Source of the DNA: Protula sp. h YS-2021
Lineage: Eukaryota > Annelida > Polychaeta > Sabellida > Serpulidae
Assembly: GCA_949752745.1 (NCBI GenBank)
Contig: OX457027.1
Coordinates: 74,530,700-74,594,699 of the forward strand
Length of the DNA stretch: 64,000 nt
Direction: 5' to 3'
Shown piece after piece: positions 33,680 through 54,290 of this stretch. The first letter of the stretch is position 1. Each line of letters opens with the position of its first letter. Below the pieces are notes generated by a model that searched no databases, was not told where the DNA came from, and saw only the letters and a list, made by a program, of their open reading frames with translations. The position numbers were made by a program, and so were the translations under genes.

Positions 33680-34150
33680 TTTTGTCAAATGTTTAACATT
33701 TCGCTAGCGAAATACAGTTCTAGTTTAACTTGCGTTGATGCGCTTTTCGCATTTTGGACCAGTGCGCATGTTTATTTAACTTATGTTGGCGCGTGGTTCG
33801 CATTTCGAACCACTGCGCATGTTTATTTAACGTGCGTCGATGCGCGATTTTTATTTCAGGCCAATGCGCATAATTCTTTAACTTGAGTTAATGCGCGGTT
33901 CTTATTCTGGACCAGTGTGCATGTTTATTTAAGTTGTGCTGATGCGCAGTTCTTATTTTGAATAGTGCGCATGTTATTCAAGTTGCGTTAATGTGCAGTT
34001 CGCATTTCGAACCGGTGCGCATGTTTATCTAACTCGTTGATGCACGGTGCTAATTTTGGTCCCGTATGCTTGTTTTATTTAGCTTGTGTCGATGTGCGGT
34101 TCGTATTTAAGACCAGTCCGCATGTTTTTTTTAACTTGCGTTAATGCTCG
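33680..34150. repeat. 51-bp satellite, block left of the LTR element
   Basis: About nine diverged 51-bp units with the landmarks AACTTGCGTTGATGCGCGGT, CGCATTTCGGACCAGTGCGC and ATGTTTATTT. The array breaks at TTAATGCTCG (34150), where the LTR element begins, and resumes in the same unit phase at 46435. Confidence 0.85.
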
Positions 34151-34494
34151 TGTGAAACAAAAAGGTTTCTCCGTGTAGGGCAACGTATATAGTAAGGATC
34201 GATTGAACGTCTGATCCCGCGGCACTAACTTAGTCAATGCCGAAGACCGATGTAGACGCTACAGTGTTCAGATCCAAACCGATTTATTATTTTCGATTTT
34301 CGACTTATATACTGTTACGCATAGCAACGTACGTCACCTGCGTAATCGCGTATGTACGTATGCAAATGACGTTGTTGCGACCAGCGCACACCGCGTCAGT
34401 CCTGGAGTCATGACTTAGTCACATGACTCCGTACTAACGCAATGGCCAGCTGAACCAGAGCAGATTAAATAAATGCAAATGATGTTTCTTCACA
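34151..34494 (-). repeat. 3' LTR (344 bp)
   Basis: Pairs with 46089-46432. In element orientation it is preceded by the moderately purine-rich GTGAAGGTTGGGAATAA, a candidate polypurine tract. Confidence 0.95.
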
Positions 34495-34512
34495 TTATTC
34501 CCAACCTTCACA
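34495..34512 (-). other. Candidate polypurine tract
   Basis: GTGAAGGTTGGGAATAA lies immediately before the 3' LTR in element orientation. It is interrupted by pyrimidines, so the call rests mainly on position. Confidence 0.35.
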
Positions 34513-37212
34513 AGAATTTGTCCTCAAATTAAATTAATTTTTAATTTTCCAGGTTAATAAGGAAGAAACACCAAATGTTATGAAAAAATGTACATCAAAA
34601 GACATAATGATGAACTAGTGCATATGCGTAACTTTCTACAGCGTAATAAGATAAGAATAAATCAATAATAATTTTAACAATTTTAAAAAATGATATTTTT
34701 TTTTAACCAATGACTAGATGAATGACTAATTGACTAAGTTTACGTTCACGGCATGGTAGCATATCACTAGTCTCTTCGAAAGCCATACCACATGGCATTT
34801 ACTTATTATTTTTATACTGTCTCTGTTCCAGATTCACTACTCCAGATGATTCCACGACTCAATACGCTGATGACCTGAACTGATGAACACTTGGTGAACA
34901 ACTGATGAACACCAAACTGTATGTTATAACTAAAAAAAACGACATACTGTGTTTTACTATGAAACCTGTTGTTTTACTGCGTTAGCTGATAAGAAGAAAG
35001 AAGACTACTGACAGAAGAATTTGCCCAGACAAGAAAATCTTGCCCAGAAGAACTACCCGTTGCCCATGTCCCTTGCCAACATAGCGAAGAGTCACGTGAC
35101 GCTTCCCGAGCAACGACGTTAACGTTTTAACGTTTCGAATGTACACATATATATATATATTTAAGTCTGCAATTAAATTAATTACCAATGTTGGTAATTC
35201 AAATTCCACATAATTGCCATAGTTGACTCATATTTACACCGTGTACCTGTCGTAACTAAGTACACCTACTGGTGTTAGCCCTGTAGTAACTATGACCACT
35301 TAGTCGGACTACTCTGTCATGGCAACATAGCAGACCTATACTAGCACATCATGATTAAATTGAAGTAGTACATTCGAGCATAATGGATCGCTATAGTATA
35401 ACAACGTTATATAAAAGTTCGTTGCTATGGCGACGACCCAAACCTGTAAGAGCACATTATGATTAAATTGCAGTAATATATTAGAGCATAATGGATGAAT
35501 AGTCAGTCTAGTTCCTGTCATCAGAAACGCAATTTTAGATAAATATAAGTTAATTTCAGTTAATTTTCTAAAGGTCAAACGTTCATAGTCCCTACCTAAA
35601 ACACTTTAAGACCAGGTCCATGACACCCTGCCGTCCCACAGACCTCGTTTAGTTCTTTCACACAAGAATCACACTCGCTCTCAATGGTAAATGACAATAG
35701 CGAACGACAAGATACAGAAATTAAATGTTTTGCTATTTTCCAAATGTAATTAATTAAATTTTTGAAGTAAATTTAATGTACCAAATTTGTACCAGACTTC
35801 CAAAATATAAAATGTAAGTTGATAAAATTTTGTTTGTCAAATGTTTCCTGGATCTCGAATGACCGATTAACTTCAAAATGAAAGTTAAAAAAATAATAAT
35901 AATAATAATTTAACGTTATATATATTTACTTTCAAACCTTCTTTAAAAGAATTTTAATTAATTTTAATAGACTAGCATCGATGTAAGTGATTAATGAATG
36001 CACTGTTATTTTTCATTAAATTAAAGTTCAAATTTTTAAATTAAAGTTAAAAGTTACTTGGAACGATAGCTCCTATCATAATGAGTTACACGATATGACA
36101 TCATGCATACAACATTATATAACGTTATCCTAGTCCATATCTACCTAAGTTACTATCGTACTGGTTCAACCCACACATGTACAACATCCACACTTGTAGG
36201 TTGTATCAACGTCAGATATAAATCACATCAGTCCATGATATGCAGATGACAGATGAAGACACAAGTCCTCCCTGGTATGCAGATGACAGATGAAGACACA
36301 AGTCCTCCAATGCGACATTGAAACCAGCTATCGATCAACTCCGTCGGTTTATTCGAGCATTGAAAAGGAAAAGCACATTACCATTAGCAAGGATGACTTT
36401 GTTCCATATTTAATCCTATTTTATATCAAACATTAACAAACACTAGTACGGTTTCGTCAGCCAAACCTACCGAAAAGCTAAAATGTTTTGATCAGCCAAA
36501 ACCATTCAAAAGCTAAAATGTTTTATCAGCTAAATCCATTCAAAAGCTAAAATGTTTTATCAGCTAAAACCATTCAAAAGCTACAATGTTTTATCAGCTA
36601 AAACCATTCAAAAGCTAAAATGTTTTATCAGCTAAAACCATTCGAAAGCTAAATCACTAATCAGGTTTCGTCAGTCAACCCCTTCGAAAAACTAACATCA
36701 GGTTTAACTAGCCAAACCCGTCAAAAAGCTAACATGTTTACTGATAAAAATTTACGCATGCAAGTTAACTTAACTTAAGCATGTCACTGCCTAAATAATA
36801 CAGTGTAGACTGATCACGACCTGTCTTAAAGTAAAAGTACATATAATATTAATACTGAAACTAAAATATTAAACTGAAAAGACGTTATATTATTGACATT
36901 TAAGTTAACATTTTACTGAAAAATTTTAACGACGCCAATTTTTTAATTCAGTGAAATTTTAAGATTGTAGTTTACCAAAGTTAATTTTTTTTTTTTTGGA
37001 AATTGTAAAATTTAGTTTGCCAAAGTTTTTTTTTATTTTAAAATTTAGTTTACCAAAGTTAAATCAAACTTTTTTTTTTTAAATTTAGTTTACCAAAATT
37101 AAATCAAACTTTTTTTTTTGTTGTTTTTTGTTTTTCAATTTAGTTTACCAAAGTTAAATCAAACTTCCCATGAAGCTCCCGTCGAATACTTTATCCCCCT
37201 TTCAATGAAATT
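34513..37212 (-). other. Long 3' non-coding region of the gypsy element with internal tandem repeats
   Basis: No gene recognised. It contains a roughly 33-bp repeat (AAAGCTAAAATGTTTTATCA) at about 36470-36690 in about seven copies and AAATTTAGTTTACCAAAGTT copies separated by T runs at about 36965-37165. Two duplicated blocks around 35340-35490 share CACATNATGATTAAATTG. Confidence 0.7.
36470..36690. repeat. Tandem repeat inside the gypsy element, about 7 x 33 bp
   Basis: Units of the form TCAGCTAAAACCATTCAAAA followed by GCTAAAATGTTTTA, the middle copies nearly identical. Confidence 0.85.
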
Positions 37213-38778
37213 TTACTTTTTTTTCTTTTTCTTTTTCTCGATAGGAAATTTTACTATTAAAGAAGGCACAGCCTCCAGATCCTCGACCTGATCTCCCCAG
37301 CTTTCTAAAGCCAGAGGATCCTTGACTGATGCAGTAGCCAATTCACTGCAACCTTCGGGGACCTGAAACGCTGTTGTTTCAGGCCGGGTGGTGACTGTTT
37401 TGTCACCACCACCCTCCACCTCAGAAGTTGACTTACCAGATGGAGCTGTAGTTACTGCTGAAGTGGAGTCCCCTGTAGGCTCTAATGACCTGGATGACTC
37501 GGTAGTCACCTCCATTGGTTCCTCAGGCATCCTGGTGAACTCCTGGCCAGGACCCTGGTACTCCTTATCGTCAGGGAACCTGGCTGTCGGCTTATAATGG
37601 TCCGACTTCCTGGGTGGAGGACTTACGTCCTCTACCTTACCAGCCGTAGGCCGGCCACTGGCGCACCAACAACCTAAGGACTTGTTAAACAAGTCGAAGT
37701 TGGCGTAGTGACACCTGCGACAAAAAGGGATGAGTCTATACTCAACCAAAAGGGCCCGGACAAATTTAGGGTCCACTGGCAAGTCCGGGCCAGTGATTTT
37801 CTTGTCAACCACGTCTTGGACATGACGACGAGCAATATGGGTCTGAAAGCTAGACCCTGTGGCGAAAGTGCCAAGGCACAAAGTGCACTGTAAAGCGACA
37901 TGCTTCACTTTGTGTGCTTCGAAGACATGTCGCATCCTAGTCTGTCCGTCAGTGGGTTTGAATTTTCTACCACATCCGTCGGGACATTTCAGATATGTGT
38001 CCTTAGACACCTTGACTGGCTTTGCTTTGGCCGGCGACTTGTTAGGTCGCTTTAGGGGTGACGGTGCGTCACCAGCTGACTTTTCTTCAGTCCTAGTTCG
38101 AGCCTTAGAAGTTGCGTCAGTAACTGAAAGAGAAGTTTGAGCATTAGCGGTTACGGATTCCGAGGGAACCTTACCCTGTACTATACTACTGTACGAGGGG
38201 GATGGTTTAGCCACCATATTTGGGTTAGGGACAATTGTCCAAGCTACTTGATTATTTGGTCCCTGAACTGGCAGGAACATATAGGGTGGGAAGCCAGAGG
38301 CTTCAAATCCCGGCGGTGGGGATACCGCTGTCGCTAGTTGGGATGGCATAGCCATAAGTCCCGGCGATCTAGGGGCTGTAATGACAGCCGGTTGATCAGC
38401 CGAGGGCTGAACAACGGATTCAGCCACCTTAGGTGACTGAACCTTAGGCTTAGTCACCCGAGGTGACTTGATCTTGGGCCTACAGGCCGGTGGTGGTGAT
38501 GCCACATCACTGTTTGCCAAAATGGTTTTGGCAAACCGGAGCTCCCAAAAATTTTCGGTGAGCCCAGCAATGGGTCCAATAGACCCCTGATACTTTTGTA
38601 CTTTGTACAAACACCGCTTTCCTTTACGAAGGCGACCTTCCACTTGATCGCGGTGTTTCGATAGAATATGTTCTTCTATCGATAACTGGGGGTCCAAAAT
38701 AGTACCCCCCGCATTATATGCGGTCTTACAGAACCCACATTTGAATAATTTTCGGTAGTTAACCTGACTTTGTGCCAT
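37213..38778 (-). CDS. C2H2 zinc-finger protein encoded in the 3' region of the gypsy element (521 aa)
   Basis: Intact ATG-to-stop frame in the same orientation as gag-pol and inside the LTRs, where env or an accessory ORF can sit. Visible motifs: a finger-like C14-x2-C17...H37-x4-H42; a Pro/Ser-rich linker (about 95-240) with a basic PLKRPNKSPAKAKPVKVSK stretch that could be a nuclear signal; a second finger C265-x3-C269...H284-x4-H289; a canonical third finger C298-x2-C301-x12-H314-x4-H319; then C353/C356 and C370/C372, a possible further zinc site. The C-terminal third is Thr/Ser/Glu-rich and ends in a lysine run from a T-rich tract. No signal peptide or membrane segment, so it is not an envelope protein. 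It could be a nucleic-acid-binding accessory factor or a captured host gene. Unlike pol, the frame is unbroken over 1.56 kb. Confidence 0.85.
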   Translation of the reverse strand: MAQSQVNYRKLFKCGFCKTAYNAGGTILDPQLSIEEHILSKHRDQVEGRLRKGKRCLYKVQKYQGSIGPIAGLTENFWELRFAKTILANSDVASPPPACRPKIKSPRVTKPKVQSPKVAESVVQPSADQPAVITAPRSPGLMAMPSQLATAVSPPPGFEASGFPPYMFLPVQGPNNQVAWTIVPNPNMVAKPSPSYSSIVQGKVPSESVTANAQTSLSVTDATSKARTRTEEKSAGDAPSPLKRPNKSPAKAKPVKVSKDTYLKCPDGCGRKFKPTDGQTRMRHVFEAHKVKHVALQCTLCLGTFATGSSFQTHIARRHVQDVVDKKITGPDLPVDPKFVRALLVEYRLIPFCRRCHYANFDLFNKSLGCWCASGRPTAGKVEDVSPPPRKSDHYKPTARFPDDKEYQGPGQEFTRMPEEPMEVTTESSRSLEPTGDSTSAVTTAPSGKSTSEVEGGGDKTVTTRPETTAFQVPEGCSELATASVKDPLALESWGDQVEDLEAVPSLIVKFPIEKKKKKKK

Positions 38779-39600
38779 CTTGGGCGGCTACCTACGAACG
38801 AATGATCGTCTGCATCCAGTCGCTGCGCGTCATGCGCGTACCTTGCGCAAAACGATACACTAACGTTTCTACGCAAAGTACGCATAATTACTGAGGAAGC
38901 CATTGTTATTGTATATAGTTCCCTTGACAACAGTCTCCATTTCTTGTTTACATAACAATGGTTCATCACAATGGCTGTGTGCATGAACATGAGAAGACTG
39001 AAAATTCATCCCGTAAACCAATATTCTCAAAATTAGTTTACATTGATAAAATTGGGTTTATAAATATTTATTGCAATAAGAAATATTTGATTTTAATAAA
39101 AATTATTAATTTTATACGAAATATGAGGTTAAAATTTTCAAAACTCGAGATTTAACTTTAAGCTCATTAAAATTCTCAAAAATGCAATTTTAACGGATAT
39201 AATCGAAATATTATTAAATTTTTGTAACATTGGTTCTAAAATATAGGCAAAAAAAAAACAAAATTAAGTTTTTGGACCAAAAATAGACCCCTGGAGTGCT
39301 CCACAACAAAATCCTACCACCATTGTTAATAAATATTTATTGTTAATAACATTGTAAATATCTGTTAGAAACAGACAACATTTACAATTTAATCACAGTA
39401 TTTGTGTGATTTTTCACCACCAACACGCTAAAATCCACAAAATTTACAATTTTCCACACCAAAGTTTTTTTTTTTTTTTTTAAGCAGAGCACATGAAGTA
39501 TTGAATTAAATATTTTATACTAGAATAAAGTTATGAAGATACAATAATTTTAATAACCCAATATTAATTTCAGTCTTCATAAATTTTGATAGTTAATAAA
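38779..39600 (-). other. AT-rich spacer between pol and the zinc-finger ORF
   Basis: No coding content recognised. An A/T-rich segment with a T18 run near 39463 follows the integrase stop. Whether a subgenomic or spliced message is produced cannot be judged from sequence. Confidence 0.5.
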
Positions 39601-40551
39601 CTAAGTTTTTAATTCAGGATCAGCGATCCTGTCCCCATAGAAATCTGGGACCTTACGATGACGCTTTGGCCGTCCTACAGGATTTTCGCTAGGAAGTTCC
39701 AAAGATTCTTGCACTTTTGGTGTTCCTTCTATGGATTTCTTTGCGAATTTGGTTATACTATTGTCTAACCAATGCATATCAACCCGTTCCCTAAGGAAAC
39801 ACGGTTTCAAATGATTATGATGTACAACCAGAGTACCGGATCTAGCTGATTGCTGGAGTCTGTACACCACATCGGAAAGGATTTCCACAACAAAGTATGG
39901 ACCCTTCCAAAAGCTGAGAAGCTTGGGACACTGTCCTTTCTTAACAACAGGTCGCCAATACCAAACAGCATCCTTTAGTTGATACTTATGAGGTTTCAGC
40001 CGATTTAGATAGCTTCGTTCCTGATATTCTACAGCCTTCTGTAGATGTTGCATAGCTAATCTATGCGACTTGTTCAATATATCTCGAACATGCTGCACAT
40101 ATTCAGGTATGTTGAAATCCTGTTTGTCAGGAGTATCTGGTGAAAATGATTCCACCGGCAAAGATATTTCTTTCCCAAAAATAAGGAAATTTGGTGTAAA
40201 ACCAGTGGAACTGTTTTTACAGCTCCTAAATGCCATTGTAAGAAAGGGGAGTACTTCATCCCATTCCCATACATTCTCGTCAATGGCTGTAGCTAACATC
40301 TGCTGCAGAGTGTGATTAAAACGCTCTGTAATAGCATTCGCTTCCGGATGTCTAGCTACTGTAAATGATTTCTCAATACCGAGTAAATCACACAATGAGC
40401 GAAATATTTTCGACTCAAATTGCGTACCTCTGCCAGTATGCAATTCTGATGGGCAGCCAAATCTTGACACCCATTCTTTAGCTAGAATATTAGCTATAGT
40501 CTCAGTGGTCTGATCATGCATTCCATATGCCTCTACCCATGCTAGTCTCAA
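39601..40551 (-). pseudogene. pol: pol part 4: integrase core remainder and C-terminal domain
   Basis: 316 codons beginning inside the integrase core (WVEAYGMHDQTTETIANILA). The expected Asp of the second catalytic motif is Gly here (LHTGRGTQFES), while the Glu motif is present (ITERFNHTL). The C-terminal part has the gypsy-type FWKGPYFVVEILSDVVYRLQ and VVHHNHLKPC segments. A short piece of the core between parts 3 and 4 is missing or out of frame. Confidence 0.88.
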
Positions 40552-40888
40552 CTAATGGGCCCATCACATCACAGGACACCCGCTCGAAAGGCACACCCAT
40601 TACGTATTTACGTAACGGTGCACAGTAGGACTTCGGCGGACTCTTTTTCTTTTGACAAGAAGAACAAGTCCTAATGTAAAGGTCTACTGCCTTTCGCATT
40701 TCAGGCCAAAAATACTTAGCCTGTATCTTAGAGTAAGTTTTATCTACTCCAAGATGTCCACCAGTAACCGTATCATGATACTGATAGAGCAATCTCGCCT
40801 GATATACTTCAGGCATAACCAATTGGTAGGTTTTTCCCCGAAGTTGGTCAATGTTTCTTCTAAATAGAAGACCATCTTCCACGGCCAA
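40514..40888 (-). pseudogene. pol: pol part 3: integrase zinc-binding domain and first catalytic Asp
   Basis: Frame-shifted relative to part 2. Contains an HHCC integrase motif (GGHLGVDKTYSKIQAKYFWP, then YIRTCSSCQ) and SCDVMGPLVET, where the Asp is the first residue of the DDE triad. It ends by a further frame break after GRGIWNA. Confidence 0.88.
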
Positions 40889-40892
40889 AGTT

Positions 40893-42119
40893 TTACCAGG
40901 CAGCTTTGTAAGATTTTAATTCCTTTCCTAAATGACATATTTCTTGCGAAGTGGTTTTCCTTCCAGTTTCAAGCCATTTAAGTACCTCGGCTATCACTGG
41001 ATCAGACTGTTGAGCCTTTTTCATTGACTCTTTGGTCCAAGGAAACGGAAGGTCATTATTGCTATCCGCCGGATCGGGCTGACTTTCATCTTCCTCACTT
41101 TCGTCCATGCCCCAAGCGAAGACACTGTCTGGAGATATCTCTTCACAAGATAACTCCAAACAACAGTCCCCACCCTGAGTTAGACGTAAAGGACAAGGAT
41201 TGTCTTGAAACTCTTCAAGCGTTGGATTCGAGCAAGAATACCCACATAAGCAGCGCTTGCCACCACATGGAATTCTGCTCATAGAATCCGCATTGCCATT
41301 CTTCCTTCCTGGCCTGGCTTGAATGTCAAAATCGTATTCCGACAAAGCTTCAAGCCATCTTGCAAGTTGACCAGTAGGATCTTTGAATGACATCAAATAC
41401 CGTAAAGACGCATGATCTGTCCTTACAGTAAAATGACTACCCCAAAGGTAGCAACGCCAGTGTAACACGTGGTAAACAATAGACAGTAATTCCTGCCTGC
41501 TGACACAGTAGTTACGTTCGGCCTTGCTCAATGCCTTTGAAGAGTAGGCAATAACGGCAAGTTCACCATCTTGCATTTGGTGAAGAACTCCACCAATGCC
41601 TTCTGCACTGCTGTCTGTATCCAGTACATAAGCACCTTCATCTCGTGGCAGTGCTAAAATGGGTGCTGAAACCAACTTGGACTTTAAGAGTTCAAATGCA
41701 TTTTCGCACTCTTGAGTCCAGTTGAATTCTGGCTTCTTTCCCTTTTTATCGAGTTGTCGATTCAAAGGAAACGTAATTTTCGCATAGTCCTTAATGAACT
41801 TGCGATAGTAACTGGTTAATCCCAAAAACCTTCGGATTCCTTGCACCTCAGTCGGTCGTGGAAAATCCTTAACCGACTGTATTTTCACAGGATCCGTGTG
41901 TACACCATTTTTACTAATGGTGTATCCAAGATAAAGCACTTCTGTCTTAAACAGATTGCATTTCTTGGGCTTGAGTTTTAACCCTGCACTGCGAAGACGC
42001 AGGAATACCAACTCTAGTCTTTCTAAGACTTCTTGTACAGCGGATCCGAAGACAAGAATGTCATCCAGATAAACCATACATATCTGCCAATGCAGACCTT
42101 TTAATATCTTCTCCATCAT
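40893..42119 (-). pseudogene. pol: pol part 2: RT catalytic YLDD, RNase H
   Basis: 408-codon frame continuing pol part 1 in the same frame. YLDD at residues 17-20 holds the second and third RT catalytic Asp. The connection and RNase H follow (YVLDTDSSAEGIGGVLHQ, AVIAYSSKALSKAERNYCVS, FTVRTDHASLRYLMSF), then an acidic linker. It ends at a TAA created by a 1-nt frame change after KSYKAAW. Confidence 0.9.
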
Positions 42120-42146
42120 TCGTTGGAATGTGGCTGGAGCATTAGT

Positions 42147-43736
42147 TTAACCCAAGCTCATCACATTCCAATGATAGAGACCACTGCGAGTGCAAAATGC
42201 AGTCTTTAGCTTAGATTCTTTCTCCATTCTAACTTGATAGTAACCACTAATCAAGTCGAGAGAACAGAAATACTTTGCACCCGATAATGCATCGATTGAT
42301 TGATCAATCGGTGGTATGGGATGTGCATCCTTTACCGTAACTTCGTTAAGTTTACGATAATCGCAGCACATCCTTAAACTTCCATCCTTCATTCGAACGC
42401 AAACTATCGGACTGGACCAAGCACTATCCGAAACGGAAATCATGCCGGTCGTCAAAAGAAGTTGGATTTGCCTTTCCACTTCCTCATTTTGTTTGGGAGG
42501 AAGAGGTCTTGGCCTCTGCTTGATAGGCACTTCGGTTTTTGTAACTATTTTATGCTCTACCAAATCAGTTTGACCCATATCATTTTCTCCTGACGAGAAA
42601 ATATCCTGATATTGGATCAGTTTCTCCTTTACCAGAATTTGTTCTTCTGGAGAAAGATTTACACAAGCTTCTTCAAACAACTTGTGTAAATGCTCAGGTA
42701 ATTTGCCTCTGCTCATATTACCTAAGTCAATGCCAACTTGTGCAACCAAATCGGCGCGAGTGAATACCTCATTTTCTACTACGGTAGAAGTAAGATATCC
42801 ACATCGAATCCCATCGGACCCTGATATTAAAATCACCGGATCATTAGTTGGATTAAAAACGCGAATAGGTACCATTCGCTTGTGATTCATAGTTGTTGAA
42901 GCGCATGCTATTAAACCATGTTCACGAAAGAATGAAGGTTTTGGCTCAAACAACATGGGTATAGTTGAATTACAGCCAACTTCCCCACTCTTCAACTTAA
43001 CTTTACCTGGTAAAATCATTTCTCTACCAGGTGGAATTATATACTCTCCATTGAGATATACTCTTCTGGGAGTAGGTTTTCCGTTCAATACTAGACACGG
43101 AATTGACTGATTTGACGCAGTCACTGTATCATTCTTGGTATCAATAGTTATGCCATTCTCAGATAAAAATGACATCCCAAGAATGATCTTATCTCCTATA
43201 TCTGCTACATGAAACTGTACAGGTAAAACAAGTTCACCAAATTTCACGCGATATCGAATGATCCCATCACATTGAATGAGATCGCCCGACACTGATCTTA
43301 TACCACATTTGCGGTTTACCAGCTGAGGGCGGTGTTTATTTGGTATCGAGTTATAAACACTTCTAGCCATTATACAGCAGCTAGCACCGGTATCGATTAA
43401 CATAGGCACAGCTTTGTCACCTATGGCACCAACAAGGAAAATTCCTCTGTCAGACTTATTCAATGTGTCTGGATCTATTTTACAATACTGTAAAACAGAA
43501 TGGTTTTCACAAATGTAAAAACTGTCAGAATTCTCAGTTTCTGAGCCCAGTAAATACTGAACGCTATCAGTAAGTGTAACGTCAATATTACCCTGACTCA
43601 GAGAGAAAACTGCCGACTGGCTATCTGAATAACGTTCAGTTTTGTCAGTCCCTTCAGACACATCATCTGAAATAAGGTTAGAATTGTTAGAATCCAATTC
43701 AGACTCCACGATCCTAACTTCAGTTTGTGTGTTCAC
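42147..43736 (-). pseudogene. pol: pol part 1: aspartic protease and start of reverse transcriptase, ends at an in-frame TAA
   Basis: 529 codons from the internal Met. The protease active site DTGA is at residues 115-118 (LIDTGASC). The RT fingers and palm follow (KQRPRPLPPKQNEEVERQI, RMCCDYRKLNEVTVKDAHPI, FCSLDLISGYYQVRM with the first catalytic Asp). The frame stops at TAA directly before TNAPATFQ, a conserved RT motif, and continues in the same frame beyond it, so a single nonsense change splits RT. Confidence 0.9.
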
Positions 43737-43759
43737 ACACTCAGGCTTCTGGAAGAAAT

Positions 43760-45577
43760 TTACTTCACTTTTTCCTTCTTTTCCTCCTTCGTCTCCGTCC
43801 CGCCTGTCGGAGGAGACTGCCCCAAGTTTAAAGCAGGACTAGAACATTTTTTTCTTAAGTGTCCGCGTCCCCCACAGTTAAAACATTTAACGGACTTGGG
43901 ATCCCACTTTTTAGTGTATTTTGAGAAAGACTTCTTATCTTTTGATTTAAAAGACGCCTTCCCTTTTAGATAGTTGACATCATCTGTATCACTATCTGAT
44001 TCCTCATCCTCATCAGAGGACTCATCGTCAGATGGACGTACCATTCTGACTTTATCCTTAGGATAAAGAGGTCTAGCTTTAGACATGGCCGTTTTAGCAG
44101 CAACATAACGCTCTGCATATTGCATAGCATTTTCGACAGTAGCTGGTGGATTTATCATCAGATACTGTTTAAGTTGACAGTCGTGAAGACACTTAATAAA
44201 ATGGCGCTTCACGAGAACCTCCTGTTGTGCCAGGCTTGGTACTTCTGGATAAGCCAGAGATACCAATCTTCGAACTTCATCTAAATATGTTCGAAGGTTG
44301 TCCCCTATTTTCCATATCTGTCCCTCCAACAGAGACTGAAAATGGTGACTGCTGTCGGCTGAACCGAAGCGTTGCTCCATAGCTTGGAACAGTTGCTGAA
44401 ATGTCAGCATATTAAGCTGACGCTCCAACGAAATGATAAAGCTTTTAGCTTCATCTTGTAAATTGGAGAGGAGGTAATATTTCCTCTCCTGTTCTGTCCA
44501 ATTATTCAGAACAGATGCTTCTTCAAAGAGGCGTTTAAAATAAGGCCATTCGCTATAACGACCGTTAAAAGAGGGGGCCTTAATTCTAATTTTATGATCG
44601 TGAGAATTATCATTGTAATGAAATCGCGATTTGCGAGTTTCATTTGTAGCCCTTTCAATAGGATTAGGCTGATAACAAATGTCCCTAGCAGGGAAATTAC
44701 CGTTATTTGTATAGGCAGTATTTTGGGAATACTGCTGATCATCAACCAAATGATAATCATTATTTACAAAAGTATTCTCAAAATTAGAATACTGTTGCGA
44801 CCTGTGCATAGGTTGATTCGCCATATTACCGTAAGGTAATTGTGAAAAATCATGATTGCGAATCCCATTGGATTCATTACAATCAATGATTATATCATTA
44901 GAACCTACAGTTCTATTGGTAATGGCAGCTGTATGGTGCATACCATTATGAAAATAATTATTATTAAAATAATTATTTTGTGCTTGACTTCTACCTGAAG
45001 TCGTTTGCGTATGAAATGGCAAATACATTCCATATTTATCATGATTAAAATCATGAATTTCATCGTTTGATGAAGGTACCCTAGGTGTTTCATACACCGT
45101 AGGTGTAGTACGAATATTTGAAATACCATACTTATCAGCAAATTGAGACTGCTGATTTGGTGGAATAAAAGTAACACCGAATTGTATCGAATTTGACTCT
45201 GGCAAATTATTTTGCATTTGAGATCGACGTAATAGATGTGAATTATTACTCGAATACTCAGGTATCGCAGGACTTTGCAAAACCGTGGACCTTGGAACAG
45301 GTCCAGCCGATGTCATCGGCATATTGTAACTACATGGAGTTACATGATTTTCTAAGGAAGAAAGGCCATTTCCACTTTCTTCTCTATTTACTTTGAAATT
45401 CTCATTAATCTTGTGAGAATTTTCAGTAAATCCCATGGGTGTAAAAAATGTACACCGTGGGCGTGCGGATTGCAACTGATCACCATAACGAGGCTCGCAC
45501 CTGAAGTCATGTGATCGAAAAGAATGTTTGTCAACATTAGAATTGACATTACTACTTTCGGAAACAAAAGTAGTCAT
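43760..45577 (-). CDS. gag: gag polyprotein with CCHC zinc knuckle
   Basis: 605-codon frame. An Asn/Ser-rich N-terminal half is followed by a retrotransposon gag domain (IKAPSFNGRYSEWPYFKRLF, then LEGQIWKIGDNLRTYLDEVR). An acidic Asp/Glu/Ser stretch and the knuckle CFNCGGRGHLRKKC (C-x2-C-x4-H-x4-C) come near the end. It forms the particle and binds element RNA. It stops 24 bases before the pol Met. Pol is in the -1 frame and that frame is open back across the gag stop, so pol is probably made by -1 frameshifting on the A-rich 3' end of gag. Confidence 0.9.
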   Translation of the reverse strand: MTTFVSESSNVNSNVDKHSFRSHDFRCEPRYGDQLQSARPRCTFFTPMGFTENSHKINENFKVNREESGNGLSSLENHVTPCSYNMPMTSAGPVPRSTVLQSPAIPEYSSNNSHLLRRSQMQNNLPESNSIQFGVTFIPPNQQSQFADKYGISNIRTTPTVYETPRVPSSNDEIHDFNHDKYGMYLPFHTQTTSGRSQAQNNYFNNNYFHNGMHHTAAITNRTVGSNDIIIDCNESNGIRNHDFSQLPYGNMANQPMHRSQQYSNFENTFVNNDYHLVDDQQYSQNTAYTNNGNFPARDICYQPNPIERATNETRKSRFHYNDNSHDHKIRIKAPSFNGRYSEWPYFKRLFEEASVLNNWTEQERKYYLLSNLQDEAKSFIISLERQLNMLTFQQLFQAMEQRFGSADSSHHFQSLLEGQIWKIGDNLRTYLDEVRRLVSLAYPEVPSLAQQEVLVKRHFIKCLHDCQLKQYLMINPPATVENAMQYAERYVAAKTAMSKARPLYPKDKVRMVRPSDDESSDEDEESDSDTDDVNYLKGKASFKSKDKKSFSKYTKKWDPKSVKCFNCGGRGHLRKKCSSPALNLGQSPPTGGTETKEEKKEKVK

Positions 45578-45628
45578 AGTACAAGTAGGTACTGAGGTTT
45601 TAGATTGTGTACCTAAAACGGATATAAC

Positions 45629-46015
45629 TCAGCTTTGGTTAGGCTGACGCCTATCCAAATCCGGTGGGTAAGGCAGTTGATCTACGAAAGGGTTGTGTAC
45701 CGAAGATTTGTTAACACGGGAAGTAACAACCGAATGAGGTAAAATAACAGTGTCAAATCTGTCAAATTTACTAAATTGAGGAGGGGTAGTCAAACCTCTC
45801 ATTATCGCCAAAGATCTTGAAGGATCTTTAGGATATGCACCTTGTTTTTCAAGAAAATTAGGTGCCGAAAAATCGGGAATTTTGGACGAAATTTCGCCAG
45901 AATTATTAGACATATTTTGGCTTTCACCAATATGATCTAAAGAGGGTATATTGTCCAGAGAGCGAGCTCTCGGACGAGAGCGTGGTGGTAACTTCGTACC
46001 ACTACGAAGTTCCAT
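45629..46015 (-). CDS. gag: gag N-terminal part (128 codons, before an in-frame TGA)
   Basis: Starts at an ATG (46013-46015) 74 bases inside the 5' LTR and opens with MELRSGTKLPPRSRPRARSL, a basic start common in gypsy gag proteins. It ends at a TGA in the same frame as the main gag frame; between that TGA and the next in-frame Met there are only 17 sense codons. So this is either the gag N-terminus cut by one nonsense change, or a separate short leader ORF. Confidence 0.65.
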   Translation of the reverse strand: MELRSGTKLPPRSRPRARSLDNIPSLDHIGESQNMSNNSGEISSKIPDFSAPNFLEKQGAYPKDPSRSLAIMRGLTTPPQFSKFDRFDTVILPHSVVTSRVNKSSVHNPFVDQLPYPPDLDRRQPNQS

Positions 46016-46069
46016 GGTAAATGATGAATATTATTGGAATATATTTCTCAGAAATAAAGAAATAAATGC

Positions 46070-46088
46070 CAGTTTCCGCTGCCACCAC
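46070..46088 (-). other. Candidate tRNA primer-binding site
   Basis: In element orientation the 5' LTR is followed after one base by TGGTGGCAGCGGAAAC. TGG complements a tRNA 3' CCA end, and position matches LTR-element primer sites. I cannot assign the tRNA. Confidence 0.55.
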
Positions 46089-46432
46089 TGTGAAACAAAA
46101 AGGTTTCTCCGTGTAGGGCAACGTATATAGTAAGGATCGATTGAACGTCTGATCCCGCGGCACTAACTTAGTCAATGCCGAAGACCGATGTAGACGCTAC
46201 AGTGTTCAGATCCAAACTGATTTATTATTTTCGATTTTCGACTTATATACTGTTACGCATAGCAACGTACGTCACCTGCGTAATCGCGTATGTGCGTACG
46301 CAAATGACGTTGTTGCGACCAGCGCACACCGCGTCAGTACTGGAGTCATGACTTAGTCACATGACTCCGTACTAACGCAATGGCCAGCTGAACCAGAGCA
46401 GGTTAAATAAATGCAAATGATGTTTCTTCACA
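46089..46432 (-). repeat. 5' LTR (344 bp)
   Basis: Direct repeat of 34151-34494 with about five substitutions. In element orientation it starts TGTGAAGAAACATC and ends GTTTCACA. Confidence 0.95.
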
Positions 46433-47880
46433 TTCGGTTCCCATTTCTGACCAGTGTGTTTGTTTATTTAGCTTGCGTCGATGAGCGGTTCGCATTTTCC
46501 ACCAGTGCGCATGATTATTTAACTTATGTTGATGCGTGGTTCGCATTTCGGACCAGTGTGCATGTTTATTTAACTTGCATTGATATCCTGTTCACATTTC
46601 TGACCAGTGTGTTTGTTTATTTAGCTTGCGTCGATGAGCGGTTCGCATTTTCCACCAGTGCGCATGATTATTTAACTTATGTTGATGCGTGGTTCGCATT
46701 TCGGACCAGTGTGCATGTTTATTTAACTTGCATTGATATCCTGTTCACATTTCTGACCAGTGTGTTTGTTTATTTAGCTTGCGTCGATGAGCGGTTCGCA
46801 TTTTCCACCAGTGCGCATGATTATTTAACTTATGTTGATGCGTGGTTCGCATTTCGGACCAGTGTGCATGTTTATTTAACTTGCATTGATATCCGGTTCA
46901 CATTTCTGACCAGTGCTCATGATTCTTTAGGTTGCGTTGATGTGCGGTTCGCATTTCGGACCAGTGCACAGGTTCATATAACTTGAGTTGCATTTCGGAC
47001 CGGTACGCATATTATTTAAGTCCCGACGAAGTCCGACTTTTATATCTATTCAACTTGCGTCGATGCGCGGTTCTCATTTCGGACCACTGCGCATGTCTAT
47101 TTAACTTGCGTCGATGCCTGGTTCTTTTTCGGACTAGTGCGCATGTTTGTTTAACTTCCGTCGTCGATGCGCGTTTCGCATTTCGGACCATTGCGCATGT
47201 TTATTTAACTTGTGTTGATGCGTGGTTCTCATTTCAGACCAGTGCGCAAGTTTCTTTGGTTTCAGTTGATGCGCGGTTCTTTTTTCGGATCAGTGGGCAT
47301 ATTTAACTTGCGTTCATGCGTGGTGCTTAATTTGGACCAGTACAAATGTTTATTTAACTTGCGTTGGCGTGTGGTTCGCATTCCCAACCACTGTGCATGT
47401 TTATTTAACGTGCGTCGATGCGCGGTTCTTATTTCAGGTCAATGCGCATATTTCTTTAACTTGAGTTGATGCACGGTTCTTATTCTGGACCAGTGTGCAT
47501 GTTTATTTAACTTGCCTCGATGTGCGGTTCGCATTTCGGACCAGTGCGCATGTTTCTTTAGGTTGCATTGATGCGCGGTTCGCAATTCGTACCACTGCGC
47601 ATGTCTATTCAACTTGCGTCGATGCATGGTTCTTTTTTCGAACCAGTGCGCATGTTTATTTAACTTGCGTTGATGCGCGGTGCTTACTTTGGACCAGTTT
47701 GCATGTTTATTTATCTTCCTTCGATGCGCGGTTCACATTTCGAACCAATGCGCATGTTTATTTAACTTGCATCGATGCGCGGTGCTAATTTTGGACCATT
47801 ATGCATGTTTATTTAACTTGCGTCGATGCGCGGTTGTTAAATCTGACTACTGCGCAAGTTCATTTAACTTCCGTTTATGC
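46433..47880. repeat. 51-bp satellite, block right of the LTR element, with 153-bp higher-order repeat
   Basis: Continuation of the 33680-34150 array. At 46440-46905 three consecutive 153-bp units (each three 51-bp monomers) are nearly identical, a higher-order repeat; further monomers to 47880 are more diverged. Because 51 is divisible by three and units lack stops in one frame, the array yields long open frames of repeated residues on both strands; I do not regard these as genes. Confidence 0.92.
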
Positions 47881-48845: not shown

Positions 48846-49957
48846 CAGAAGTAGGAAAACGATGGTTCTGCGCCAGGAAATGACGTCATAGGCGGCGTTA
48901 ACATGGTGATAATGACGTCATCAGTCACGTGACCAATGAAAAGCCAATGAAATCAATGAAAACAATGAAGCCCCGCCCACTTCTGTCTATCACCTGTCAA
49001 TCATCGTGACGTCATGAATCACATGACCAATGAAAAGCCAATGAAATCAATGAAGACAATAAAGCCCCAACCACTTTCTGTCTATCACCTGTCAATCATC
49101 GTGACGTCAGACCCCCTCATATCTATGTTTAGACTGGGGAAATTTTACAACATCTATTTTAGTAACTTACAAAAAAGTGGATAACTTTCGCTATAGTGGG
49201 TCGATTTACATGAAAATTTCACCGTTTGATTCAGTTTTATATCTAGTTTTAACATAAAGTAGTCAAGGGCTATTTGCACCGGTGGCTGTATGCATAATGT
49301 GGGCATGACTCTATTTTAACTTTGTAAAAAGTGAGATAAGTTTCGTTATGGTTCACCGATTTGAATGAAAATTTCACTCTTTGATTAAGCTTTATATCTA
49401 GTTTTGACATAAGTCGTCATAGGCTATTTGCACCAATGGCTGTATGCATAATGTGGACATTTCGCCATTTTAACTTTGTAAAAAGTGTGATATCTTTCGC
49501 TATGGCTGGCCGATTTGAATGAAAATTTCACTGTTTGATTCAGTTTTATATCTAGTTGTGCTATAAGTGGTCATGGGCTATTTGCACCGGTGACTTTATG
49601 CATAATTGTGACATGCCGCCATTTTAACTTTAAAGTGAGATATCTTTCGTTATAGTTGACCGATTTAAATGAAAATTTCACCATGTGATTCAGTTTAATG
49701 TCTAGTTTACAGTTGGGCTATTTGTGACGGTGGTTGTATGCATAATTGATTCACCTTAAAATATTAAACTTTAAAAGTGAGATAACTTCCGTCATGGTTA
49801 ACCGATTTGAATGAAAATTTCACCGTTTGATTCAGTTTGATGTCTAGTTTACAGTAATTATAGACTAGTTGCATAGGTGGCTGTAAGCACTTTGTGGGAG
49901 CCCACCCCCATTCAAAGATGTGTTCGAATGTCAAGTCCATTTTTTGGAACATACTAC
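48846..49957 (+). repeat. Left terminal inverted repeat (about 1.1 kb)
   Basis: Pairs with 51407-51496 and 54291-55303. Outer 260 bp carry two copies of a GTGACGTCA/ACCTGTCAATCATCGTGACG block; the inner part has five diverged 150-bp repeats starting near 49212, 49364, 49511, 49671 and 49812. Confidence 0.85.
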
Positions 49958-49984
49958 GTCATAGTATTGTTCAAAAAGTTTTTT

Positions 49985-50195
49985 TTTGTTGTTGTTCAAC
50001 AAGTTGTTTAACAATTGTACAACAATTGTTCAACATGTTCAACATGTTGTTCCACATGTTCAACAAGTTGTGAACAAGTTGAACATGTTCAACATGTTTT
50101 TGACCAAGTTGAAAATGTTCAACATATTTAACATATTGTTCAACATGTTCAACATGTTGTTGAACAAGTTGAACATGCAATTGATGCAACAATAG
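49985..50195. repeat. Array of TGTTGAACA/TGTTCAACA palindromic motifs, downstream of the zinc-finger ORF
   Basis: Dense copies of AACATGTTCAACATGTT, ACAAGTTGAACATG and variants, each a near-palindrome of about 8-10 bp arms. The array lies on the 3' side of the ORF. Confidence 0.85.
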
Positions 50196-50454
50196 CAAGC
50201 AGTTCAGAAAAAAACAAGATATATGTTGAATAGTTTTATTAATACACTTAAATACACACAGCTCAAATCTATAGCAATATTACAACATTTGTTGATTTAC
50301 AAAGTCTTTATTATAAAGTTTAGTCAAATAAATCTATTTTTCTTCATCTGCTTCACTCTTTTCCATCTCAGTGTCCTCATATATATCACTTTCTTCGTCG
50401 TTGCTTCATCTTCCTCCTCATCTAGAAGCTCTTCAAAGAATGCATCGTTTCTTC

Positions 50455-51075
50455 TTATAGCCGCCTTTTTAGTGCCTTTGAATACTCGTAATGTTTTTCA
50501 ACAACAAAGTAATTAAAGTCTTCTAAAATGGTTTGATAATGTTCGTTTTGTTCTAGACGTTGGGTATATTTGAATGGTCTCATAAACAGTTGTTTAAGTC
50601 GACGCTTATAAATGGGTCGAAAGTCATCACTTGCTATTTCACGCGCATCTTCAAGCCCTTGTTCTTCATATTCTGAAACCTTTTCTTGAAATTTGGTATC
50701 ATATTCATCGTAGACGTCTTGAACCATATCATACCAAACAGAGTCTGTTTCTGACTCACTTTCAGAGTCTGTTTCTGACTCACTTTCAGAACTCCTGTCA
50801 TCAGCATCCTCACCACACTGCTCCATATGTTTGTGCAAAGCTTCTTCGCTGTTGTATAATGCACCACATTCTGTACAAGCATGTGCATTCTTTTCAGCCA
50901 TGTTGACGCTTTGACTTTCCATAGAAGACTCATCTAAAGTTTCCGTGAAAGGTAGTTTTACAGGGTTTTCCATATCCGATTCTTCATCCACTTCTGAAGT
51001 GTGAACATCCTTTAAGTGTCTTTTAAGACTTTGTGGCCAATTGTAAGATTTCGAACAAATGTTGCATTTATACAT
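50455..51075 (-). CDS. C2H2 zinc-finger protein of the large inverted-repeat element (206 codons, 3' end frame-broken)
   Basis: ATG at 51073-51075. Canonical C2H2 finger at the N-terminus (C4-x2-C7-x12-H20-x4-H25, MYKCNICSKSYNWPQSLKRH), and a second C-x2-C-x12-H-x3-C finger (C67, C70, H83, C87). A duplicated acidic run SESESETDSESESETDS follows, then a charged, aromatic-rich helical segment (YKRRLKQLFMRPFKYTQRLE). The frame stops at 50455, but an adjacent frame continues with a DEEEDE-type acidic tail to about 50350, so the original protein was probably about 50 residues longer. No transposase motif. The flanking palindrome arrays could be its binding sites (inference). Family unrecognised. 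Confidence 0.75.
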   Translation of the reverse strand: MYKCNICSKSYNWPQSLKRHLKDVHTSEVDEESDMENPVKLPFTETLDESSMESQSVNMAEKNAHACTECGALYNSEEALHKHMEQCGEDADDRSSESESETDSESESETDSVWYDMVQDVYDEYDTKFQEKVSEYEEQGLEDAREIASDDFRPIYKRRLKQLFMRPFKYTQRLEQNEHYQTILEDFNYFVVEKHYEYSKALKRRL

Positions 51076-51137
51076 CCTTTCGGTTCAACCTACACTATTC
51101 AAATGATGAGAAAGCCTTTAAACATAGCCTTATATAC

Positions 51138-51256
51138 AACTTGCTGAACAACATGTTGAACATGTTCAACTGATTGAACAGACATGTTGAACAACATGTT
51201 AAACAACATGTTCAACAAGTTCAACATGTTCAACATGTTGTTGAACATGTTGTCTA
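51138..51256. repeat. Array of TGTTGAACA/TGTTCAACA palindromic motifs, upstream of the zinc-finger ORF
   Basis: AACATGTTGAACATGTTCAA and related copies lie 60-180 bases 5' of the ORF start on the - strand, the place for a promoter or operator region. Confidence 0.85.
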
Positions 51257-51283
51257 CGCCTAGGGTTAGGGTTAGGGTTATGC
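51257..51283. repeat. Short interstitial TTAGGG repeat
   Basis: CTAGGGTTAGGGTTAGGGTTA: three TTAGGG-type units within the inverted-repeat element. Too short to be a telomere. Confidence 0.8.
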
Positions 51284-51289
51284 CGCTTA

Positions 51290-51400
51290 GAAGAGTCTAA
51301 CGTCATAACGTCATTATAACGTCATCATGACGTCATAACGTCACCATTATGACGTCATAATGACGTCATAAAGACGTTATGACGTTAGACTCTCCTAAGC
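51290..51400. repeat. GACGTCAT/AACGTCAT palindrome cluster
   Basis: About nine ACGTCA or TGACGT motifs in 110 bp, arranged as nested inverted repeats (e.g. AGAGTCTAACGTCATAACGT with ACGTTATGACGTTAGACTCT), just inside the right arm. The ends pair as a large hairpin. Confidence 0.8.
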
Positions 51401-51406
51401 GTAGTA

Positions 51407-51496
51407 TGTTCCAAAAAATGGGCTTGCCATTCAAACACATCTTTGAATGGGGGTGTGCTCCCACAAAGTGCTTACACCTATGCAACTAGTCTATAA
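51407..51496 (-). repeat. Right terminal inverted repeat, inner part
   Basis: Reads CGTAGTATGTTCCAAAAAAT to CAACTAGTCTATAA and is the inverted counterpart of about 49860-49957. It stops exactly where the left arm continues as TTACTGTAAACTAGAC, which resumes at 54295. Confidence 0.85.
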
Positions 51497-51739
51497 CTAG
51501 AGCGGCCACTGCACACAAAACATAGGAGTACAGGCTTATGTTATAAACTTTCAGTCGATACCTACTTAGTTTCTTGTTTTTGTGAACAAAAACAAATGTC
51601 TGCCCGACTAAACCCATGATCCCCCCCGCCCCCCCCCCCCAAAAAAAAATCCTTTTTTGAAATTACTGAAATAAAATATTCATTTCTGCAGACATAACCT
51701 TAATTCATTGTAAAAAACTCAGAATAAACCACACAGTTG

Positions 51740-52010
51740 GTGTTCACTAAAACAGATATAAATGGACGTCTTTTTTCATACGAGTCTGGAAGGTGGTCGC
51801 TATAACGGGTTTTACTGTAGGCCCTTCTCATCCAGATCTGAAGTTGGTCATTATAGTAGTTTTACTGTACGTTACATTTTTATCCGGGTCTGGAAGTTGG
51901 TCAAGACAGGCAGGTTTTACCGTACGTCTTTTTACCCGAATCTGGAAGGGGTCACGACGAACGGGACTTACTTTTTATCCTGGTCTTGAAGGTGGTCGGG
52001 ATTTTATTTT
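51740..52010. repeat. Inverted relative of the 17640-18130 array
   Basis: Landmarks GAGTCTGGAAGGTGGTC, GGTTTTACTGTA and CCGGGTCTGGAAGTTGGTCA are reverse complements of the earlier array's CCGGA..CAGTAAAACCT units; about four units. Confidence 0.65.
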
Positions 52011-52689
52011 GTTAACTATCATCCTCCACACGCCCCCCCCCCCCACCCAGCTATTTAATATAGGTCTGACTATAAACACAACTCTAACCCTTTTACCCAA
52101 GGCAACGGTAACGGTCTGTATCCTAAGGGTAGTTACAGCCACGATAGACTACCTTGTCTTCGCACATTCCCATCGGCCAAACAGCACTAGAAAGGCCTTC
52201 TTCATAACTGCGCATCAGATGACGCACCTCGGTGGGAGAAGGGGGAAGGCATTTCGGTGCCAAAATGGTGAGCTGCTACTCATAACACAAGATATCAGAT
52301 GACCCACTTTAATAGCGAAAAATGCTTCTGCAAACAATGCCAATCGCTCCTATATATAGAATACCTTGGCAACCGAATCAAGTATGCGGCGAAAAAAACA
52401 TCAATAGCTAGACCTGCTTAGACCTATGACCTCGTAGATGACGACTCCATCCTGCACCACAACTGACACTGACCCCTGACTGAGTGGCATGTTACGTAAC
52501 AGCTGTAGATGAGAAACGCACAAAAAGCTTAATTTCAGACACTAACAAATAGCAGTGGACCGGCATTAATGCTGTTACTGTTTTGAAGCTTTCTAAAGAA
52601 TGCAGGAACATTCGAGAATCTTCTGCAAAACGCTGAAATCCCCAGCGTAGTTAACATCCATGCTTAGATAACAAAGGAGCCAAAAAAGG

Positions 52690-54180
52690 GGGAGGCGGGG
52701 GGGGGGGGAAGTGTTGATGTTATACACCTTTCTTGATTTTCTACAGGAATTTTATAGTGTTTAATCAAAACCGTGCGACTTATCCGAGGAATAACTACAC
52801 CAAATTTAAAGTCGATCCGACTTTCCGATGTCGAGGAATTTTGCTTAACAACAGATATTTTTTTTAAAGTTGAAAGAATATCTATATAAAATTTTAAGTC
52901 GAAATGACTTTCCGTTATAGAGATATTATGCATACAAGATCTGGTTCTAAATATACACATATTTTTCGCGATGACGTCACACGCCACATTCGTTCGTTCT
53001 ACTCGCGAAAAAAATTTAAAGTTTCTTTCGGACCTACCAAGCAATAATCCCATCAAGTTTCAGCTTTCTCCGATGTTCAGCAGCTGAGAAATTTCGCACA
53101 CAAGATTTCTACGTGATGACGTCATACACTTGCCCTCATCACGTGATATCCGTGAAAAGTTGACAGAACCGTCCAACTGACCCAAGGAATGTTCATATAA
53201 AATTTGAAGTCGATAGGGCTTTCTGTTATCGAGATATTTTGCACACAAGACTTTGTTTATAATATATATGTATTTTACGTGATAACGTCATACGTCGCCT
53301 TCGTTCGTTCTACTCGCGAAAAAATTCTACAGAATCTTTCGGACCTACCAATCAACAATTTCACTAAGTGTCAACTTTCTGCGATGTTCAGCAGCTGAGA
53401 AATTTCGCACACAAGATTTTTACGTGATGACGTCATACACCTGCCCTAATCACGTGACATACGTGAAAAGTTGACAGAACCATTTGACTAACCCAAGGGA
53501 TGTTCATACAAAATTTGGAGTCGATAGGGCTTTCCGTTATCGAGATATTTTGCACACAAGACTTTGTTTATAATATATGTATTTTACGTGATAACGTCAT
53601 ACGCCGCATTCGTTCGTTCTACTCGCGAAAAAATTCTATAGAGTCTTTTGGACCTACTAAATAACAATTCCGCCACGTTTCAACTTTCTCCGAAGTTTAG
53701 CGGCTGAGAAATTTTGCATAAAAGATTTTTACGTAATGACGTCATACGCCTACCCTAATCATGTGACAAGCGTGAAAAGTTGACAAAACCGTTCGACTGA
53801 TCCAAGGACTGTTCATATAAAATTTGAAGTCGATAGGACTTTCCGTTATCGAGATATATTGCACACAAGATCTTGTTTAAAATATATACATATTTTACGT
53901 GATGACGTCATACGCCGCATTCGTTCATTCTACTCGCAAAAAAATTCTATAGAGTCTTTCGGACATAACAAACAACAATCCCACCAAGTTTCAACTTTCT
54001 CCGATGTTCAGCGGCAGAGAAATTTTGCACAAAAGATTTTTACGTAATGACGTCAAACGCCTGCCCTAAGCACGTGACTTGCGTCAAAAGTTGATAGAAC
54101 CGTCCGACCTAATTTAGAAATAAATCGATCAAGTTTGAACTCGGTCCGACGTTTCGTTCTTGAGATATCTTGCACACAAC
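52690..54180. repeat. Tandem repeat, four-plus copies of about 310 bp
   Basis: The CGTTCGTTCTACTCGCGAAA landmark recurs near 52991, 53302, 53611 and 53920. Other landmarks are TTTTACGTGATGACGTCATA, AAGTTGACAGAACCGT and GAGATATTTTGCACACAAGA. A related diverged copy lies outside the element at about 55380-55740. Confidence 0.9.
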
Positions 54181-54189
54181 ACTTTGTTC

Positions 54190-54290
54190 ACAAGCGACTG
54201 ACACACACACACACAGACACACACACACATACACACATACACACACACAGAACGTACAAACACTATATGTCTCCCCTTGGTCGGGGAGAC
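54190..54290 (+). repeat. CA microsatellite and terminal hairpin
   Basis: ACACAC run interrupted by CACAGACAC and CACATACAC, then AACGTACAAACACTATATGT, then the 8-bp-stem hairpin ending at 54290. Confidence 0.85.

Follow-up and report, generated by a model that had tools for sequence, protein, structure and literature searches.

A 64-kb stretch of the genome of the serpulid annelid Protula sp. h YS-2021 (GCA_949752745.1, contig OX457027.1, positions 74,530,700 to 74,594,699; hereafter the window), from a genome of 863 Mb, harbors a 12.3-kb Ty3/Gypsy element on the minus strand (34151-46434). Between the integrase (39601-40888) and the 3' long terminal repeat (LTR) of this element, in the env position, lies an open reading frame (ORF) of 521 codons with an ATG start (37213-38778), here called ORF3, which by its sequence is a C2H2 multi-finger protein. 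The gene is genuine and old, and it belongs to a group of Ty3/Gypsy families. In every one of the eight families or subfamilies compared, ORF3 follows the integrase on the same strand and retains its zinc-ligand positions (finger 2 of family B aside), and its last three fingers have a counterpart in an apparent host gene.

Three matches to the pattern C-x2-4-C ... H-x3-5-H are present in ORF3 (C14/C17/H37/H42, C265/C269/H284/H289, and C298/C301/H314/H319), followed by a further cysteine cluster (C353/C356/C370/C372). The original prediction, made from the letters alone, had named these ligands, the extra cluster, and the location and strand of the frame between integrase and 3' LTR, and all of them sit as described. 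Among 1,000 control sequences generated by a first-order Markov model matched to the length and dinucleotide make-up of ORF3, no frame stays open for more than 242 codons, and the longest open run of a sequence is 111 codons at the median. The context of the start codon is favorable (CCAAGATGG, by eye), yet an upstream ATG frame overlaps it.

To place the gene among related elements, the genome was searched with the window integrase, which gives at least 129 matches in identity tiers; the family letters used here denote these tiers and are not tree-based. Figures from the match lists of the integrase and ORF3 searches apply to the matches listed, some of which are fragments, and are not rates. 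Five regions (L032-L036) were chosen by related integrase alone, 45-81% identical to that of the window, and in all five a homologous frame follows on the same strand 0.4-2.2 kb downstream of the integrase (585 aa in L032, 444 aa in L034, 360 aa in L035 of family E, 301 aa in L036, and split in that copy in L033). Two more subfamilies, picked by their ORF3 matches, have frames of 518 aa (L037) and at least 435 aa (L038). Window ORF3 matches the other seven families or subfamilies in BLASTP at E values from 1e-42 to 4e-12, and leave-one-out profiles recover each omitted family at 1.5e-10 or better, the best shuffled sequence reaching 11 bits. Common to all eight are a C2H2 finger near the N terminus, a tandem pair of C2H2 fingers, and a degenerate fourth finger (IPFCxxC...CxC).

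Across the genome, 90 of the 117 integrase loci listed are followed on their own strand by an ORF3 match no more than 6 kb away, mostly at 0.4-1.5 kb, and none of the 117 has one upstream or reversed within that distance. Among the 27 integrase loci that lack an ORF3 match is L036, which carries ORF3, and therefore at least 91 integrase loci have a downstream ORF3; conversely, 58 of 148 ORF3 loci have no integrase match. The L032 protein finds at least 90 matches, including seven 585-aa copies, 97-100% identical, in open frames of 590 codons, and the L035 protein finds at least 114 and reaches window ORF3 at E = 1.8e-5. At least nine full-length ORF3 copies of the L035 family share the same top score, which suggests a very recent amplification. 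Thus, the multi-finger gene regarded as unusual in the original prediction is indeed there as an element-borne accessory gene, recurring in related Gypsy families; it is no oddity of one copy or one family.

With alignment positions given in residue numbers of window ORF3, the finger 1 ligands C14, C17, H37, and H42 are invariant in eight rows, one for each family or subfamily. In the central module, aligned over ten rows, the finger ligands C265, H284, H289, C298, C301, H314, and H319 are invariant, as are Y347, I350, F352, C353, C356, F361, L363, C370, P377, and G380 in the region of finger 4, while C269, P351, C372, and the Y of the finger 4 CxY are nearly so. It should be noted that the frame of L033 (family B) is broken at finger 2 and that its row begins inside this finger, so its cysteine is no real test. 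Decayed ligands occur among close copies, for example L011, L013, L014, and L026, and linker lengths vary between families. Tails rich in lysine are found in L032, L034, and L037; in L035 the lysine-rich stretch is internal, and L036 has none. The lysine run that closes window ORF3 (37213-37242) is not of constant length among copies, and the C terminus thus seems to drift through repeat slippage.

Window ORF3 does not reach the curated Pfam cut-off for a single finger (zf-C2H2_4, 14.5 bits vs. 27), L032, L035, and L036 are also under it, and L034 matches no family. When profile A2 of ORF3 is compared with the PDB, the finger pair matches solved DNA-binding pairs of ZBTB17 (E = 1.6e-5), BCL11A (1.2e-4), and CTCF (2.2e-4), host proteins that resemble ORF3 in having a tandem C2H2 pair but are not element-borne. 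A first fold model of ORF3 was unusable (pLDDT 31.6). A model of the central module reaches pLDDT 66.2, and the structures ranked highest against it are mostly C2H2-DNA complexes, as weak matches; Foldseek returns nothing at E <= 0.001 with this model. Because the structure comparison effectively covered model residues 3-95 only, the fold of finger 4 gets no support either way.

Within the family of the window element, ORF3 DNA gives 29 matching pieces genome-wide, the window included, which correspond to the window and 23 other places (L009-L031). Of the 20 main loci (L009-L028), 18 have integrase DNA that aligns beside ORF3; L012 has the spacer without the integrase, and L027, a copy with an internal deletion, retains the order LTR-ORF3-LTR. 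Of the remaining places, L030 retains the spacer and the end of the integrase, and L029 and L031 are without integrase. In L012 (1070-9133) and L027 (1485-6052), the LTRs and ORF3 are present and much or all of pol is gone, and these two copies are possibly non-autonomous derivatives that retain the zinc-finger gene. ORF3 is uninterrupted in six of the 24 places (window, L009, L010, L011, L012, and L017). The original prediction had been struck by an unbroken ORF3 beside a damaged pol, and the pol lesions are real; because 18 of the 24 copies are broken or partial, however, an intact ORF3 in the window copy is unremarkable and does not speak for selection acting on that copy.

Selection is visible over longer distances. 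Codon counts below use aligned codons, with gaps and stops set aside. Between the window and L029, the most distant alignable copy, ORF3 has a dN of 0.174 and a dS of 1.16 over 354 codons, a ratio of 0.15, with 66, 54, and 153 changes at codon positions 1, 2, and 3 (p = 1.2e-14); gag in the same pair has a dN of 0.204, a dS of 0.483, and a ratio of 0.42. The comparison with L029 thus shows ORF3 to be under protein-level constraint. An excess of third-position changes is also present in L030 (p = 0.0004), L028 (p = 0.005), and L027 (p = 0.003), and is not seen in L024 (p = 0.29). For closer copies, compared on 14-90 changes, the ORF3 ratio is 0.18-0.71, and the same comparisons give 0.20-0.68 for protease-RT (reverse transcriptase), 0.11-0.82 for the second integrase piece, and 0.53-2.08 for RT-RNase H. 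Recent copies alone therefore fail to single ORF3 out.

The fingers resemble part of a separate open frame of 1,583 codons at C1:69.9 Mb, found with the L035 protein at E = 1.2e-4, of which 2.2 kb (L039 and L040), or 733 residues, were read. These residues contain two clear three-finger modules (C2H2, C2H2, xPxCxxCxYxx...HxC) and a third with two fingers. Profile A2 scores 87.3 bits against them (E = 1.4e-23 for 177,635 sequences), the best PDB sequence reaching 27.9 bits, with modules at residues 132-223 and 307-392 and a weaker one at 557-626; the domain matches are 51.5, 37.6, and 8.3 bits, of which the third is not significant by itself (bias 28.6). With profile A2, L039 alone reaches 57.6 bits, an unrelated C2H2 ORF of the window 19.0, and the highest-scoring of 200 shuffled sequences 6.3; with profile A3, the three values are 44.0, 26.3, and 7.4, respectively. 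Comparison of profiles by hhalign gives a probability of 97.1. With a profile made without family E, the frame scores 58.7 bits and family E itself 44.6 bits, and the frame is therefore about as near to the ORF3 family as its most distant member. In these alignments, the last three fingers of ORF3 agree in sequence, order, and spacing with a module present at least twice in this frame, plus a weaker partial copy. In finger 4, the last ligands are C-x-C in the elements and H-x-C in the other frame; given that the counterpart is a CxxC...HxC finger, the cysteine cluster of ORF3 looks like a degenerate finger.

The length of the 1,583-codon frame, its openness, and the lack of an integrase of this group nearby among the matches listed lead us to infer that it is a host gene. 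The element lineage would then have captured one module from this frame or from a relative of it. The idea of a captured host gene, one of the options in the original prediction, is consistent with the module shared with this putative host gene. Domestication, the opposite direction, would derive the host frame from an old ORF3 whose module was multiplied, perhaps as a repressor of these elements. The module is single in the element and repeated in the host frame, and the last finger of family E (...KHCLC) holds both the H and the C-x-C, as such a course would have it; that genes with repeated fingers are the likelier donors is a general expectation only, and domestication retains a real, if minor, share of our credence.

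Taken as a whole, the reading that we moderately favor is that ORF3 is an old gene of this Gypsy group whose module was captured from the host and whose product is a nuclear, nucleic-acid-binding regulator of its own element. The fingers, the basic stretches, and the lack of a membrane segment are the reasons for preferring such a regulator, and each step beyond a zinc-finger protein is our extrapolation. A gene downstream of pol requires a subgenomic mRNA; ORF3 would be made from its own mRNA, either spliced or from an internal promoter, and its product would enter the nucleus through the basic stretches. Tandem C2H2 fingers are usually DNA-binding and some bind RNA, and those of ORF3 may bind nucleic acid, the most likely target being the element's own DNA or chromatin, with control of element transcription or silencing as the outcome; less likely, ORF3 would bind genomic RNA for nuclear export. 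By description, the proposed regulator is comparable to the transactivators of complex retroviruses, such as Tas of foamy virus, which are accessory DNA-binding regulators encoded downstream of pol. It is tempting to speculate further, albeit at a good distance from the data, that the whole Gypsy radiation carries a sequence-specific zinc-finger regulator derived from one module of a host protein with repeated zinc-finger modules. With DNA-reading modules that match between element and host, the element copy would compete with or block a host factor able to recognize and silence these same elements. If true, the roles known from the KRAB zinc-finger arrangement would be inverted, the transposon itself supplying the decoy or activator.

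Among the closest known parallels is CERV of the Caenorhabditis elegans element Cer1, a nuclear protein of 517 aa that is needed for the export of genomic RNA and contains a candidate C4-type finger whose cysteines are required for export (PMC10309623, in the part available). By analogy, nuclear ORF3 made from a spliced mRNA might gather on unspliced genomic RNA via its cysteine-rich finger and export it. Both are large non-env ORFs of LTR elements, about 520 aa long, between pol and the 3' LTR, with a cysteine finger, and ORF3 has, besides basic stretches, a non-classical Cys finger (C-x-C) that is strongly conserved. However, CERV is a five-exon product with its first exons in the frame of gag and with helical and globular domains, and in the available part of that report neither a C2H2 pair, let alone tandem pairs resembling DNA-binding ones, nor a link to a host gene is mentioned (PMC10309623); the two are compared here by description. 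The globular M and G domains of CERV have no counterpart in the ORF3 models, which are poor. An export role of this kind for ORF3 is doubtful in our estimation.

It is a good deal less probable that ORF3 steers integration, its fingers binding genomic or chromatin sites to tether the integration complex. Zinc fingers can target DNA, and the window copy has a 51-bp satellite on either side, but the 17 copies whose 3' LTR is matched over its full length (L009-L024 and L026) have outer flanks that differ and look unrelated by eye, with no common target seen. Targeting to the satellite in particular was considered and rejected, given that the flanks of the other copies, by eye, are unlike the satellite surrounding the window copy. 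An envelope-like gene is very improbable; position alone speaks for it, whereas the fingers are of an intracellular kind and no part of ORF3 is hydrophobic enough for a membrane segment (best 19-residue Kyte-Doolittle mean, 0.98), on which ground the env reading was rejected. That ORF3 is an open frame arisen by chance, or a host gene broken up by pieces of LTR, is hardly credible, being refuted by the copies, the Markov control, and the frames of related families: other copies do have the ORF, and the locus is no assembly artefact.

Non-env genes between pol and the 3' LTR are already known, and C2H2 fingers are not described for them in the available parts of the reports (PMC10309623, PMC7264820, PMC5408684). 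Plant elements such as Grande (gene23) and Retand resemble the window element in having an extra gene in this region, and the Grande product is a nuclear protein with its own promoter according to a title cited in the review (PMC7264820). The genes of Grande, RIRE2, and Retand differ in being antisense and in plant hosts, and zinc goes unmentioned in the available part of the same review (PMC7264820). ORF3s of LTR elements in bdelloid rotifers are likewise captured, family-specific, and downstream of pol; in contrast to the gene described here, they encode DEDDy exonuclease, GDSL esterase, transmembrane (TM), coiled-coil, or paramyxovirus-like env products, with zinc or C2H2 not mentioned for them in the text available (PMC5408684). 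A word search of the available text of three surveys of invertebrate LTR elements finds neither zinc nor C2H2 (PMC8556966, PMC8220671, PMC6238403), and parts of PMC6338049, PMC12440569, and PMC13228809 were also consulted. No C2H2 gene in the env position of Gypsy is named in the titles and abstract openings searched, subscription papers being mostly outside the search. In the protein database, none of 7,993 candidates scored against ORF3 matches at E <= 0.001, and none of 2,957 matches its residues 1-380 at E <= 10, while the integrase finds 17 relatives; the database therefore contains such elements, though no ORF3 match. Viral contigs gave no relative of integrase or ORF3 at the sensitivity of the search.

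The accessory genes that LTR elements carry often resemble env or lack an assigned fold, to judge from the available parts of the literature (PMC10309623, PMC7264820, PMC5408684), whereas the structure of ORF3 is interpretable. The system offers many near-identical intact copies in some families and a module common to an apparent host gene, which makes it testable whether regulators pass from host to element by theft or from element to host by domestication. Annotation that skips the region between pol and the 3' LTR would overlook such genes or score them as host zinc-finger genes.

The window element itself is laid out, on the minus strand, as gag, protease-RT, RNase H, integrase, and ORF3, followed by a 2.7-kb non-coding stretch (Table 1). 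Its Pfam domains follow on one strand in the order RVT_1, RT_RNaseH, Integrase_H2C2, and Integrase_p58_C, an order that, like the paired LTRs, fits a Ty3/Gypsy element. The two LTRs differ at 5 positions (98.6% identity), and with the LTR ends placed at TG..CA, the nearest approach to a target-site duplication in the flanks is a repeat of 4 nt that includes a mismatch. As predicted, pol is damaged, consisting of four separate frames and therefore bearing at least three interruptions; in some sibling copies, the integrase is still part of an open frame, the longest having 1,427 codons.

Table 1. Features of the window element (positions in the window)
Feature	Position	Strand	Basis or remark
3' LTR, 346 nt	34151..34496	-	pairs with 46089-46434
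3' non-coding region, 2.7 kb	34497..37212	-	no ORF of 100 aa or more; possible cis-acting region
Tandem repeats within 3' non-coding region	36232-36309, 36473-36653, 36937-37119	-	
ORF3, 521-aa multi-zinc-finger protein	37213..38778	-	ORF list, ligand positions, copies, codon evidence
Lysine-rich C-terminal tail, possible nuclear localization signal	37216..37242	-	length differs among copies
Degenerate finger 4, residues 353-372, YxxIPFCxxCxYxxFxLF...CxC	37663..37722	-	alignment, host-frame counterpart
Finger 3, residues 298-319, C2H2	37822..37887	-	motif, alignment, profile match to solved structures
Finger 2, residues 265-289, C2H2	37912..37986	-	motif, alignment, profile match to solved structures
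Finger 1, residues 14-42, C2H2, long loop	38653..38739	-	ligands invariant in 8 sequences
Overlapping upstream ATG frame	38676-38990	-	ORF list
Spacer, integrase to ORF3	38779..39600	-	candidate splice acceptors and TATA-like box by eye
Integrase, C-terminal part	39601..40551	-	Pfam Integrase_p58_C over cut-off, rve slightly under
Integrase, zinc-binding N-terminal part	40514..40888	-	Pfam Integrase_H2C2
RT C-terminal part and RNase H	40893..42119	-	Pfam RVT_1, RT_RNaseH
Protease and N-terminal RT (presumed labels)	42147..43736	-	frame position; labels presumed from motifs
gag, one CCHC knuckle (CFNCGGRGHLRKKC, by eye)	43760..45577	-	
128-aa frame upstream of gag	45629..46015	-	
5' LTR, 346 nt	46089..46434	-	LTR pair

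Parts of the 3' non-coding region align between the window and L029 (6114-8233) at 76-84%, vs. 67-73% for ORF3 DNA, and may, on the basis of this alignment, include conserved cis elements. The 51-bp satellite adjoins the element at 33724-34147 and 46435-47835, and the element thus sits inside a satellite array. Elsewhere in the window, a large inverted repeat spans 48850-55299, with arms at 48850-49160 and 54989-55299 (97% complementary) and a second pair of arms at 49416-49861 and 54291-54736 (93%), tandem repeats being present in both arms. This structure looks like a DNA transposon or something similar, and it encloses a 206-aa C2H2 ORF on the minus strand (50455-51075) that scores over the Pfam cut-offs.
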